56,917 nt of DNA from Candidatus Gracilibacteria bacterium CG17_big_fil_post_rev_8_21_14_2_50_48_13. Its GTDB lineage: Bacteria; Patescibacteriota; Gracilibacteria; 1-14-2-50-48-13. Below are positions 14,816 through 20,328 of the stretch, piece by piece (the stretch's first letter is position 1; every line of letters starts with the position of its first letter). The notes under the pieces are model-generated. The model saw nothing but the letters and a program-made list of their open reading frames with translations. It made no database searches and was not told where the DNA came from. Position numbers and translations under genes: made by a program. The stretch lies in NCBI GenBank assembly GCA_002783265.1, contig PFFG01000011.1:1-56917 (forward strand), given 5' to 3'.

Positions 14816-15205
14816 TTACTCTGCCTTCTCAGCTTTCTTCGCAGGCTTTTTTGCAGCAGGTTTCTTTGCGGGGGCCTTTGCTGCTTTTGGTGCAGCTGCT
14901 GCCTCTTCTTTCTTTTCTGTCTTTGGAGCTGCCGCTTTCTTAGGAGCAGGCTTCTTTGCTTCCGTTTTTAAGCTAGATGCATCGAAGTCATACATTTCCT
15001 TTAATTTCGCATCGTTGAAACCGTATTTGTTCAGCTTTGCTTTTGCGGTCATTATGGCGTTTTTCATCCATTTCGTTGGTCCTTCGTTTTTCAGACGACC
15101 AAGAAGTTTTCCAAAATCTTTGATAGCGTTTTGCGCTTTCTTCGGGTTATTTTTTCCAAGTTTTTGCGGGCTGTAGAGAAGCCGTGCTTTGCCAGATGAA
15201 GCCAT
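14816..15205 (-). CDS. Small basic protein with histone H1-like Lys/Ala/Pro tail
   Basis: The 129-residue protein has a helical N-terminal half (about 1-75, rich in Lys and Asn) that I cannot assign. The tail (about 80-129) consists almost only of Lys, Ala, Pro and Glu, with repeated AKKPA and KKPAKKA motifs like eukaryotic H1 and bacterial Hc1/AlgP-type tails. Such tails bind DNA or RNA non-specifically, so a nucleoid-associated role is likely but unproven. It is transcribed alone on the minus strand, with a shared terminator downstream and the divergent tRNA-Arg gene upstream. Confidence 0.7.
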   Translation of the reverse strand: MASSGKARLLYSPQKLGKNNPKKAQNAIKDFGKLLGRLKNEGPTKWMKNAIMTAKAKLNKYGFNDAKLKEMYDFDASSLKTEAKKPAPKKAAAPKTEKKEEAAAAPKAAKAPAKKPAAKKPAKKAEKAE

Positions 15206-15631: not shown

Positions 15632-16300
15632 TTACGTCTTCACCGGCCCATCATAGGTTTTGACTCCATTTTCCAACACAATCATTCGCCCTCCAATGTA
15701 TTGAATGATATCGCTATTGTGTGTGGTCATTATCACCGTGGTTCCCGCTTCGTTAATGGCGCGGAGAATATCCACAATACTTTTTGCTGCTGTTTTATCG
15801 AGATTTCCCGTTGGTTCATCGAGGAGAATCATTTTTGGATTATGTACCAAAGCGCGTGCAATTGCCGTGCGCTGCGCTTCACCGCCTGAGAGTTCACTCG
15901 GATACTGGTTTTGACGCCGCAACAAACCAACCTGATCGAGCGCCTTTGGCACCAGTGTATGTATAGTCTCCAGAGATTCGCCACAGACTTCTAGGGCAAA
16001 GGCAACATTCTCATACACTGTTTTATTTGGCAGGAGTTTATAATCCTGAAAAACAATACCAATGTGCCGCCGATACATTTGTACCGTATCAAAATCCATT
16101 TGCTCAATATGATTATCGTCAATCACGAGGGAGCCGGAATCCGGCTTGTGCTGCCCAATCATGAGATGCATGAGAGTACTCTTCCCTGCACCTGATGGTC
16201 CGGTAATACAAACGAATTCACCAGGAGTAATGTCCGCAGAAAAACCATCAAGCACAACGCGTGTTCCAAAACTCTTTGTGAGGTGTTCTATATGAATCAT
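15632..16300 (-). CDS. ftsE: FtsE-like ABC transporter ATPase
   Basis: The 222-residue ATPase is complete: Walker [10 protein letters not shown] (about 34-42), Q-loop [17 protein letters not shown], signature LSGGEAQR, Walker [13 protein letters not shown] and H-loop TTH. The Q-loop region is typical of FtsE, which with membrane partner FtsX activates cell-wall hydrolases at the septum. No FtsX gene is adjacent or elsewhere in the window. The gene starts 4 bp after the ligase/peptidase gene and is the last of the operon, so it might instead power the neighbouring 7TM protein (speculation). MacB/LolD-type ATPases are the main alternative. Confidence 0.82.
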
Positions 16301-16304
16301 AGCT

Positions 16305-18749
16305 TTAAGCGAAAATGGATGGAATGTAGAGAGGGTCCTTTAGCTCGTCCATTTGGGCAATCAAAGGAACACTTTCTATGCTAATTTTACCTTTATATAA
16401 CTGCTGAATATCGCCACCGTGCTTCAAGAAGTATTGCACTTTTTGCAGTCCAGTAAAGTAGACAAGATCTCTTGTGCAACCTCCTGGCTGAGATGTATCG
16501 CCAATACCTCGTTTTACGCGGTATATTTTTCGAAAAGATGACCGCAAAGGATTGGCAATTTTTGCTCCAGGCTTGAAAAAGACCTGAACCAGCGAGCTAT
16601 CCATGGCATCTTTAAAGGTCAGCGGCATCACTTCGAGCGTCTTCAAATACGTCAGTGCAGGTGTAAAGACATGAAGATTTTTCGACTCAAGATTCACGGT
16701 TTGGTTATACACAGCTAAGCCTTCCTCGGTTTGCAAATAGCCTGCCGTACCATTGGTCATAATACGATAGGGCTGGGCTAAGCCATTTTCCAGGCGAAGA
16801 ATATGTGTATCGATTTCATGTGCAAAGAGCTGTTTATTGTGTTCCTTCGTAAAATGAGCGTCATTGCGCAGATACAAAACACGTTTCTTAGATTTTCCAA
16901 CACTGATGCGGCTTCCGTGATTCCGTTTAACAATCGTCCACTCCCTATCGAGGCCATATTTATGCAAATGCTCCACAATATATGGTTCCAGTTCCTCCGC
17001 TGTCAGCCGATGTTTTTCCATAAAAGTATCCCGCTGTTTCTTAAAGAGAACATACAGCTCGTGCGCTTTGACACTGTATTCCTGATTAGCCTTCGCGAAC
17101 AGTTGCTCGGAAAGCTCTGTGTATCGCTCTGCGTCCTGTCCTACGGCTTGATAAAAGTTGAGTTTTAGAAGCAGTTCATCTTTTTTTTGTGCGAATAACT
17201 GTCCACGCAGATCATCCTCTGCGATGGCGATCTTTTCCACTTCATCATGCAGTGCCATAAGCAGATCCTTATCTTCTTTGTACACAAAGGTTGGATTATA
17301 GTTCCCCTTCTTTTCCTCAAAAATTTCCATTTCCTCATGGTAATTGACGGCGAGTAGAGAGAAATGCTTTGAAATGAGTTTTTCCACCCGGGAAAGTTTT
17401 TTATCCGTTTCACGCCACTGACGGACGATTTCCTGTTTCTTCATTTTATTCTGCGAGGAAGATGGGCGCTGTGTGGTTTCCTCATGCATTTGCGGCATTT
17501 CCTTCGTCTCGTATTTATAGGGGTCGATCAGCACATTTTTGAGCTCGCGTTTTCCAATGATCACATCAAAGGAACTTGCATCCATTTCGAGCGGTTTAAA
17601 GATACTCAGAGACTTTTTATCAAGAATCTGATAGCGCATTTTGAGGTCACCATTCTCGGTTTTAATGGATGGATGCTTCTCAATGAGGCTTTCTGCCAAA
17701 GAACTATCGATATAGTTTTCTACGAGACGTGGGTTGATCTTTGCCTGAAACTGTCGTGGACCGCCTGGTAGATGCAATGTGATATACTCCTTATTCCCCA
17801 TGATCGTTCGGCCGGACAGCATTTTGATATCCCGCTCCATTTTGCGGCCAAAGAGCGCTTTCGCTATGGCTATTCCGCGCGCAACAGACTTTACCTTGAG
17901 GCCTTCAACGCGGCGAAGGCGTTTACGGAGAGGTACCAGGTTGGCCACCTGCACCATGAGTCCGGGCCTTGCATTGACTTCAAGGAGTATTGGACCATGG
18001 CGATCGAGAGCAATGTCTACCCCGAGGTAGCCAATATTCGTGATGTATTGCGCTTGCACTGCCATGCGCAGAATTTCATCCCAATAGGGCACGGTGAAAC
18101 CTGTGAGATTACCAATGCCCGGTACTTCATGCACCAAACCATCATGCTGAACGAGATAGGTTAAATCCCCCTTGGCAATATCAATACCTGCGCCAACACC
18201 TCCCGAGTGGAGGTTTGCCTTACCATCAGAGGCTGCCGTAGGTAGGCGCAGCATGGCAAGCACCGGTACCAGGTTAAACACGATAACGCGCACATCCGGC
18301 AATCCCTTATAGGTGATGCCCTGGAGTTTACTGTGCGTAATGATGCGCTTTTCAATGAGTGCGACATCAGAGTACCCCGTCGCGTTGAAGGCCCCCTGTA
18401 CGATGGCCTGTAAGTGCTTCTCCATATCAGCATAGGTGAAACGGCGACCGCTGACGGTAAGCCATCCATAGGGACGTCGTTCGGAAAGAACAACAATTCC
18501 ATTCCCACCCGAACCGTTATTTGGCTTGATAACGATGTCCGCAGGAAGTTTTCGGAGCGTCTCGGAGGAGATATCCTGTACCTTCCGAAAGGTAGCAACA
18601 AGTTTCGGTACACGAATACCCCGTGCCTGCAGAAACTTCTTCGTCTTGAGTTTACTGTCGGCTATGGCAACTGCTTTTTTTGAATTGTATTTCTTGATAT
18701 ACAGCAGCTGACGCGCGTTGATACCAAGAATATCTCGAGGGGAAATCAT
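16305..18749 (-). CDS. Fusion: RimK-related ATP-grasp ligase, degenerate retropepsin-like domain, DUF1704 metallopeptidase
   Basis: The 814-residue chain has three parts. Residues 1-300 closely match the alpha-L-glutamate ligase-like ATP-grasp family: VIKPNNGSGGNG with K75, DVRVIVF, MLRLPTAASDGKANLH, LGVDIALD, LLEVNARPG. Residues about 315-412 resemble the RimK/LysX-associated aspartic peptidase fold (KEYITLHLPG, FQAKI, DVIIGKRELK, LIDP), but the DTGA active-site motif is replaced by NPRL, so it is probably inactive. Residues about 435-814 are DUF1704 (QEGLA/MATCAP-like), with metal motif HEIDTH (H644, E645, H649) and EEGLA (675-679). The chain could both attach and remove an amino acid or peptide tag. 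The gene is 1 bp from the 7TM gene upstream and 4 bp from ftsE downstream. Confidence 0.85.
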   Translation of the reverse strand: MISPRDILGINARQLLYIKKYNSKKAVAIADSKLKTKKFLQARGIRVPKLVATFRKVQDISSETLRKLPADIVIKPNNGSGGNGIVVLSERRPYGWLTVSGRRFTYADMEKHLQAIVQGAFNATGYSDVALIEKRIITHSKLQGITYKGLPDVRVIVFNLVPVLAMLRLPTAASDGKANLHSGGVGAGIDIAKGDLTYLVQHDGLVHEVPGIGNLTGFTVPYWDEILRMAVQAQYITNIGYLGVDIALDRHGPILLEVNARPGLMVQVANLVPLRKRLRRVEGLKVKSVARGIAIAKALFGRKMERDIKMLSGRTIMGNKEYITLHLPGGPRQFQAKINPRLVENYIDSSLAESLIEKHPSIKTENGDLKMRYQILDKKSLSIFKPLEMDASSFDVIIGKRELKNVLIDPYKYETKEMPQMHEETTQRPSSSQNKMKKQEIVRQWRETDKKLSRVEKLISKHFSLLAVNYHEEMEIFEEKKGNYNPTFVYKEDKDLLMALHDEVEKIAIAEDDLRGQLFAQKKDELLLKLNFYQAVGQDAERYTELSEQLFAKANQEYSVKAHELYVLFKKQRDTFMEKHRLTAEELEPYIVEHLHKYGLDREWTIVKRNHGSRISVGKSKKRVLYLRNDAHFTKEHNKQLFAHEIDTHILRLENGLAQPYRIMTNGTAGYLQTEEGLAVYNQTVNLESKNLHVFTPALTYLKTLEVMPLTFKDAMDSSLVQVFFKPGAKIANPLRSSFRKIYRVKRGIGDTSQPGGCTRDLVYFTGLQKVQYFLKHGGDIQQLYKGKISIESVPLIAQMDELKDPLYIPSIFA

Positions 18750-18750
18750 A

Positions 18751-20328
18751 TTATTCTTCTACATCGTGACGGAATAATTCACGAAAGCGCATGTATTCTA
18801 CCACGCGAAGACCTGTATATCGACCGAGGAGGTATTGGATCACAAAGGGAAGGAGCACAAGTTCCGGAAGCGCAAGAAGCAGAAGCTCCATTTGATCGTT
18901 CCGAATGATAAAATAACTAATGATCACAGCAAAATACGTCGCAAAAAGTCGCAGGTATTCCTTGGGGTTTTCTTTGTTGTACACAAGAATCGACAGTTTA
19001 TCTGCTTGCAGCGCAATGAGAAGAATAGGGACAATGGTGAGCACTGCTCGCTGACTCGTTGAGGTATCAATACCGTAACTGAGTCCAAAGAAGGACCCTA
19101 CCACGACACCTACAAAGACGGCGAGGGTGCTTGCGCTCAAAAGAAGCGTCATTTTTGACAAGAACAAAATATTCAGCCGTGCAAGGATAAACCGCATAAG
19201 GACCCCAACGACCACGGCGACAACCATACTAATGGTTGCGAGAGTCCCTCCCACAATATAAAAACACAAAACGAGAACCATCGTCTGAAACAAACCTACG
19301 GTTTCAACGCCAATCAATTGTTTGATAAAACCAATAATCGTGAGCAAAAACGGCATAAACAAAATAAAGACAAGAATCTGCCCTGGAATACCATTGGCTA
19401 TTCCTGCAGATACGAGCCAGGAAAGTGCCATAATAGGCCATTCACCTGCCGCTTCTTTTGTGAGTTTCACATATTCATCCTGCGGAAACTTGGTAACGAG
19501 ATTTTGTGGCGCGTCACTGGAGATAAGAAAGCTCAAGGTGGAAAAAGGATCACGACTCACCACCACCAGTTCCTTTGGCGAAAGCCGTCCAAGCATGCGC
19601 GTACTGATGCGTTGAGACAACCAAAGACTGTCTTTTGTGGTCACCACAATGGTTTTTTCTGACAAATCCACAAGACCCTTTCCTGCCTGCATGGAGATTT
19701 TTGTGAGGGCGGACAAAAAGGATGTACCGCTTGGGCCTCCAACGATGACAGCAGATTGGGCAATGACATCCGTTTGTCCTGCAAGCTCCTCTGAAATGGC
19801 ATCTTCCGTCAGAAGTGGATTGCCTTCCCTACTGGCAATGACATGCAGGTACGTCCCATATTTTTCCGCCAAATCTGTAAGCGTCGGCAAATTATTGTCG
19901 AGGATAGTTCGATCACCGTTGTAGAAAAACGTGACAATCTGTTTGTATGCAAAAATGATTGTCTCTGATGTATAGGTTTGACCATCCACCACAACACTGA
20001 GTTTCACCGTGTATTTCCCTGGTTTGTCGTAGAGATGTACTGCTTCCACACCATTTTCCTTGGTCCCGTCTCCAAAATCCCATGTGTAGACGGCCTTCGC
20101 ATCTTGAGGAATGGTGCTGCGTGATGCATCCAGGATGAAGCGTTTCCCCATTTCTACTTCCGTTCGTCCGGAAATAACGGGACGAATCACTGGAGCAAGC
20201 ACAGTTTCTACGACCTTGTCAGTAGTGTTCTGATTTGCATTTTCCAGCTGCTGCGCTGAAGCAGAAAAGAGGGAAAGCGTGAGGGTGCAAAGGAGCAGAG
20301 CAGAGGTGCGCGTTATAAGAGAGGGCAT
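18751..20328 (-). CDS. PKD domain plus 7-transmembrane protein, partner of the ATP-grasp ligase
   Basis: The product has 525 residues from the ATG at 20328, which gives a clean signal peptide (LLLCTLTLSLFSASA, cleavage before QQ). An ATG at 20352 would overlap dnaB by 14 bp. A PKD domain (about 55-130, with YTWDFGDG and YDKPGKYTVKL) is followed by an extracytoplasmic alpha/beta region (130-290) and seven helices. The helices end in a GRYTGLRVVEYMRFREL motif characteristic of the 7TM family usually found beside RimK-related ligases, where the N-terminus is an inactive transglutaminase. Here that N-terminus is replaced by PKD plus an unknown domain. It probably presents substrate to, or anchors, the fused ligase/peptidase encoded 1 bp downstream. 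Confidence 0.82.
   Translation of the reverse strand: MPSLITRTSALLLCTLTLSLFSASAQQLENANQNTTDKVVETVLAPVIRPVISGRTEVEMGKRFILDASRSTIPQDAKAVYTWDFGDGTKENGVEAVHLYDKPGKYTVKLSVVVDGQTYTSETIIFAYKQIVTFFYNGDRTILDNNLPTLTDLAEKYGTYLHVIASREGNPLLTEDAISEELAGQTDVIAQSAVIVGGPSGTSFLSALTKISMQAGKGLVDLSEKTIVVTTKDSLWLSQRISTRMLGRLSPKELVVVSRDPFSTLSFLISSDAPQNLVTKFPQDEYVKLTKEAAGEWPIMALSWLVSAGIANGIPGQILVFILFMPFLLTIIGFIKQLIGVETVGLFQTMVLVLCFYIVGGTLATISMVVAVVVGVLMRFILARLNILFLSKMTLLLSASTLAVFVGVVVGSFFGLSYGIDTSTSQRAVLTIVPILLIALQADKLSILVYNKENPKEYLRLFATYFAVIISYFIIRNDQMELLLLALPELVLLPFVIQYLLGRYTGLRVVEYMRFRELFRHDVEE

Follow-up and report, generated by a model that had tools for sequence, protein, structure and literature searches.

We propose, with confidence that is about evenly balanced, that a single bacterial polypeptide combines the writer and the eraser of a C-terminal poly-glutamate mark on a membrane receptor, a MATCAP-type carboxypeptidase having replaced a retropepsin eraser and the receptor tail having co-evolved to Glu-Glu. 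The protein is encoded on the stretch of 56,917 nucleotides analyzed here (the window; contig 4 of a 1.28-Mb, 97% complete CPR genome) and comprises 814 amino acids (16305..18749, minus strand; ORF, Pfam, NCBIfam, and orthologue matches). A sequence-only reading had described it as one chain with three domains, which Pfam/NCBIfam, profile alignment, and Foldseek bear out; its enzyme parts are established by homology. An AlphaFold2 model built from 36 orthologues reached a mean pLDDT of 87, with a pTM of 0.52 that leaves the relative placement of the domains uncertain.

The N-terminal domain (residues 5-300; 17850..18737, minus strand) is an ATP-grasp ligase of the RimK/RloC type. It matched PF14397 at residues 14-282 (2e-66; 224 bits versus a Pfam cut-off of 31.4) and, at residues 5-286, the RimK-related ligase family TIGR02291 of NCBIfam (3.6e-79), the latter with 266 bits versus a cut-off of 314.2, so that glutamate specificity is not assured. 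Foldseek with the fusion model retrieved RimK (5zct and 5zk6, the latter the RimK-RpsF complex), and the nearest solved relatives of the ligase include cyanophycin synthases as well as RimK. The ligase appears to belong to the RloC/TIGR02291 branch, and its invariant N259 aligns with N262 of RimK, a residue in contact with the last bound Glu. It probably transfers L-glutamate onto a protein C-terminus.

At the other end of the chain, residues 440-814 (16308..17432, minus strand) form a MATCAP/DUF1704 metallopeptidase domain. PF08014 matched residues 477-813 (1.5e-30; 106.9 bits versus a Pfam cut-off of 27), TIGR02421 of NCBIfam residues 450-813 with 98 bits, far under its cut-off, and in Foldseek the fusion model matched human MATCAP (7z5g/7z6s; E 3.5e-12). 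The earlier claim of an intact peptidase held in the class alignment: the zinc-binding/catalytic motif HEIDTH (residues 644-649; 16803..16820, minus strand) and EEGLA (675-679; 16713..16727, minus strand), the expected third zinc-ligand motif of the family, are both present, and HExxxH together with EG[LMI]A is retained in 41/41 class members. The domain is predicted to be a zinc carboxypeptidase, an activity known for human and Tetrahymena MATCAP/DUF1704 members, of which TMCP1/2 shorten poly-Glu chains on tubulin and trim C-terminal residues, MATCAP/TMCP1 acting mainly as a detyrosinase whose target is the terminal residue adjoining an acidic tail (PMC10499314). This last activity, along with the score of the ligase under the cut-off of a glutamate-ligase-like family, lends some appeal to a quite unlikely alternative, a bacterial counterpart of tyrosination/detyrosination, in which the ligase would add a residue other than glutamate (e.g., a single one, like tubulin tyrosine ligase) and its removal by the MATCAP domain would expose a Glu-Glu encoded at the end of the membrane partner. 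It has to be set against the kinship of the ligase with RimK and cyanophycin synthases, and against the retropepsin domains of the ligase's relatives, which belong to a poly-Glu-cleaving family.

Between the two enzymes lies a domain of residues 315-412 (17514..17807, minus strand; pLDDT mostly 82-91), previously read as a RimK-associated aspartic-peptidase-like domain devoid of DTGA. The region alone has no Pfam match, PF05618 misses it, and profile-profile comparison alone detects it: a profile of 30 orthologues aligned over the full length with the active retropepsin of other CPR ligases, a comparison set collected via PF05618 matches (hhalign 99.6%, E 4e-24), which confirms the relationship to retropepsins. 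When the PDB was searched with the profile, the sole meaningful match was the retropepsin-family entry 9g58 (E 0.23). In the hhalign alignment, NPR of the window protein stands opposite the catalytic DTG, and among class members this position reads D[TS]GA in 0/41 and D[TS]G in 5/41, in agreement with the missing motif. The flap region is shortened; the distance from the catalytic site to IGRRDLxxFLIDP, a rough motif measure, has a median of 38 residues versus ~98 in active domains, and the SxxGxxxRP-like flap segment of the latter has no counterpart in the class alignment. By its profile, the middle domain is a homologue of the RimB/RloA retropepsin that has lost the catalytic site. As RimB also stimulates RimK (PMC11957791), a dead copy may have reason to persist.

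A contig search with a single sequence returned no relatives, an alignment query did retrieve them, and the fusion protein was matched in 252 of the 353 genomes of the class (probably Gracilibacteria/Peregrinibacteria), with Ca. Peregrinibacteria, Peribacteria, and Gracilibacteria among the named relatives. Most of the matches listed are single open frames of about 780-830 aa; several families of the class read TGA as sense. Given this spread and the mostly full-length matches, an assembly artefact absent from relatives is rejected as the source of the fusion. Across 380 genomes of the phylum, many PF05618 matches fall in frames of 430-515 aa, and those read consist of ligase plus active retropepsin; in other CPR classes the ligase and an active retropepsin (D[TS]GA) are joined in one chain, at times with MATCAP encoded by a gene of its own alongside. 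Domain maps of 40 loci form a series of arrangements running from separate genes through full fusion, and include retropepsin, ligase, and MATCAP as separate genes as well as ligase-active retropepsin with 7TM. L136, L181, L182, L183, and L189 combine ligase-active retropepsin and 7TM with a separate MATCAP next door, and L191-L193 carry ligase-dead retropepsin with MATCAP as a separate gene. On a ligase tree of 59 rows, a minimum of two changes is needed to explain the fusion and a minimum of four to explain the D[TS]GA state. Loss of the retropepsin active site and MATCAP fusion go together, and the fusion arose at least twice. In view of the locus series and the tree, the middle domain is plausibly the replaced eraser. 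A literature search found no paper naming both DUF1704 and ATP-grasp; the 2009 amidoligase survey lay outside that search.

Further domain combinations were observed. In L132 (4411-7173, minus strand) and L133 (3218-5779, plus strand), one chain of 854-921 aa, adjoining a bare 7TM gene, contains ligase, active retropepsin, and a further C-terminal region, in L132 a second ATP-grasp domain by Pfam. Extra ATP-grasp-like genes lie directly beside ligase-retropepsin fusions in L139, L140, L141, L195, L198, and L199, and might encode additional amino-acid ligases of this pathway. L142 (4332-5645, minus strand) encodes a reversed chain, an N-terminal active retropepsin followed by an apparent ATP-grasp domain, resembling the RimBK hybrid.

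The gene ending 1 bp upstream of the ligase ATG encodes a PKD-7TM protein of 525 aa with an apparent signal peptide (18751..20328, minus strand; Pfam, gene neighbourhood). That it is the partner of the fusion was borne out, as a 7TM gene lies just upstream or nearby in 34 of the 40 loci with flanks, making it a constant companion. Its PKD domain (residues 46-120; 19969..20193, minus strand; PKD_4 by Pfam; 2y72, TM-score 0.88 by target) is followed by a predicted alpha/beta ectodomain (residues about 138-298; 19435-19917, minus strand) and the 7TM core (residues about 300-503; 18820..19431, minus strand; 7TM_transglut at 319-518 by Pfam). Foldseek returned only weak matches for the alpha/beta ectodomain (Nir2, E about 1e-3), which was therefore given no identity, and a transglutaminase domain was not matched in the partner ectodomain, where PKD plus another domain is found instead. 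Of the suggestion that the extracytoplasmic sensor had been exchanged for a PKD domain, the presence of PKD stands; a plain exchange does not, as the alpha/beta domain is there too and in many CPR relatives the 7TM protein is bare, devoid of any ectodomain. The chain closes with the predicted cytoplasmic C-tail YTGLRVVEYMRFRELFRHDVEE (residues 504-525; 18754..18819, minus strand), our proposed substrate, which carries GRxTGLRxxEYxRFRE and ends in an encoded Glu-Glu (-EE; codons GAA GAA, 18754..18759, minus strand). Its cytoplasmic location is suggested by the signal peptide, the seven helices, and positive tail residues.

The FtsE gene 4 bp from the fusion gene (15632-16300, minus strand; no FtsX beside it) is real, yet its assumed membership in the system was not borne out: FtsE is near 0/40 related loci, four FtsX-like permease genes sit on other contigs of the window genome, and we have rejected FtsE/FtsX as components. 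Further along, 14816-15205 (minus strand) encodes a 129-aa Lys/Ala/Pro-rich protein resembling histone H1-like tails, with small relatives in L058 and L059.

The RimK fold of the ligase would also suit a ribosome modifier that glutamylates ribosomal protein S6, with an incidental 7TM linkage. We regard this as very improbable, since the linkage is conserved, the ligase appears to be of the RloC/TIGR02291 branch, and S6 proteins of the class end, e.g., in ..DDLDI or ..DPDISL and that of the window genome in ..EEEVAA; among the class members read, no S6 with a terminal Glu was found, which disfavors S6 as the target.

What points to the 7TM tail as the target is that the partner almost always ends in two glutamates. 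The 7TM protein terminates in -EE at 91 of the 97 distinct fused loci, where 97 refers to distinct 7TM sequences from partly overlapping locus sets and 91 counts L249 under the standard code (the automatic count under code 25 is 90/97). Of the six exceptions, L054, L186, L187, and L224 have a single terminal Glu, and L097 and L248 none. The background frequency of -EE is 12/884 ORFs (1.4%), and terminal Glu is absent from Aeromonas and Legionella RloB. The stretch between the RF motif and the chain end differs in length, yet the two final residues are constant, as expected under selection on the chain end itself. We had set the -EE expectation before reading the sequences of follow-up genomes. 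These were selected on the ground that their 7TM gene mostly lies downstream of the fusion or at a distance from it. Overall, -EE was present in 26/27 genomes in which no 7TM gene was found just upstream of the fusion, and in 24/25 cases with no ligase in the same locus, the exception being L332 (like L097 and L248, a fused-enzyme genome whose 7TM protein lacks terminal Glu). The 1-bp spacing in the window might suggest that the terminal GAA/GAG codons merely serve the following ligase gene as a ribosome-binding site. This idea has a negligible chance of being right and is rejected, as -EE holds in the loci without ligase just mentioned and in at least 27/29 cases with a gene gap >60 bp, is absent from closely spaced active-retropepsin loci, and is most commonly encoded by GAA GAA (57/106), with GAG GAG at only 7.

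The -EE tail also tracks the enzyme type. It occurs in 3/3 loci with dead retropepsin and separate MATCAP (L191-L193) and in 0/18 with an unfused ligase-active retropepsin, a correlation that comprises few independent transitions (at least four of the D[TS]GA state, at least two of fusion), for which a formal independent-pairs test is powerless. The active-retropepsin loci with a neighbouring MATCAP gene (L136, L181, L182, L183, L189) have no -EE, so MATCAP presence alone is no predictor; the tail is linked to retropepsin loss or fusion, and not to MATCAP as such. Appearance of -EE only after retropepsin loss may follow from the fact that RimB needs ~5+ consecutive Glu residues and a carboxypeptidase works stepwise from the end.

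RimK adds alpha-linked Glu to the S6 C-terminus, RimB cleaves poly-Glu (PMC11957791), as does RloA (PMC12239564), and the DUF1704 proteins TMCP1/2 shorten it, so three independent parts point to poly-glutamate. We consider it somewhat probable that these parts make up a self-contained cycle of C-terminal glutamylation at the inner membrane, acting on the tail of the 7TM partner. At the expense of ATP, the ATP-grasp domain would attach amino acids (most likely L-glutamate) to the partner's cytoplasmic C-terminus via normal alpha-peptide bonds, and the MATCAP domain would take them off again, such that the balance between these activities would set tail length or charge. The dead retropepsin, plausibly a descendant of the active endopeptidase eraser still present in relatives, may be kept as a spacer or ligase-stimulating module, and the PKD-bearing ectodomain probably senses the state of the envelope and gates access to the tail. 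We infer that the residue added is glutamate, that the 7TM tail is the substrate, and that control runs in this direction; a role in envelope or hypo-osmotic stress might perhaps be considered by analogy with RloABC. The idea of a compact system that adds and trims residues at the C-terminus of a membrane-linked substrate is thus supported, with the 7TM protein's own -EE tail as the candidate.

It is rather unlikely, in our estimate, that -EE instead occupies the MATCAP active site as a pseudo-substrate or docking motif, holding the enzyme at the membrane and off until a signal arrives, with another protein or free poly-Glu as the real substrate. Such docking would account for -EE and its tie to fused MATCAP and dead retropepsin in the absence of tail chemistry, and it gains from the findings that free poly-alpha-Glu is also made and controlled by RimK and RimB (PMC11957791) and that RloB and RloC act jointly and suppress the loss of RloA (PMC12239564). 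However, one would expect an active carboxypeptidase to strip -EE from an exposed tail, and 41/41 class members retain intact catalytic motifs; moreover, no alternative candidate substrate turned up.

If the glutamylation cycle is real, the 7TM tail would be the first bacterial target of C-terminal poly-glutamylation besides ribosomal S6, the only protein on which C-terminal poly-alpha-glutamylation has so far been seen (PMC11957791). The system would then represent a prokaryotic version of the tubulin tail code and would parallel, at the membrane, the tail cycles of RimK and tubulin; it would also provide a bacterial context where an ATP-dependent ligase may already be opposed by MATCAP-type tail trimming. 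The conserved -EE offers a concrete and cheap test of the targets of RloC-type ligases and bacterial DUF1704 proteins, and could inform studies of RloABC, a stress and antibiotic-tolerance locus.

Among known systems, RloABC of Pseudomonas aeruginosa (PMC12239564) shares with the window the RloC-type ligase adjoining a 7TM_transglut protein, the link to a retropepsin, and the 7TM tail motif G-x-x-x-G-x-[RK]-x-x-E-x-x-R-F, which the homologues from Aeromonas and Legionella display. It differs in that RloA is a separate, secreted, active retropepsin (no PF05618 match was found in the 97% complete window genome), RloB has an inactive transglutaminase ectodomain in place of PKD plus another domain and ends in GKDK (Aeromonas) or KARS (Legionella) rather than -EE, and no MATCAP is reported. 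The RimB-RimK pair and the RimBK hybrid (PMC11957791) likewise unite writer and eraser of C-terminal poly-Glu, and ligase-retropepsin hybrids are thus known; in RimBK, however, an active RimB domain is N-terminal, whereas in the window fusion the retropepsin is dead and comes after the ligase, with a metallopeptidase as an additional domain, and RimK acts on S6, unlike the system proposed here. With the eukaryotic MATCAP/TMCP enzymes (KIAA0895L, KIAA0895), the window peptidase shares the fold and HExxxH, and those enzymes act on acidic C-termini and shorten poly-Glu (PMC10499314). Their substrate is tubulin and no ligase fusion of them is known, whereas the window peptidase shares its chain with a ligase and has a 7TM protein as its partner. 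A parallel is offered by TTL/TTLL ligases, TTL being ATP-grasp-like, and their carboxypeptidases: there, an ATP-dependent ligase and a MATCAP-type peptidase work in opposite directions on an acidic C-terminal tail; the two systems have no substrate in common.
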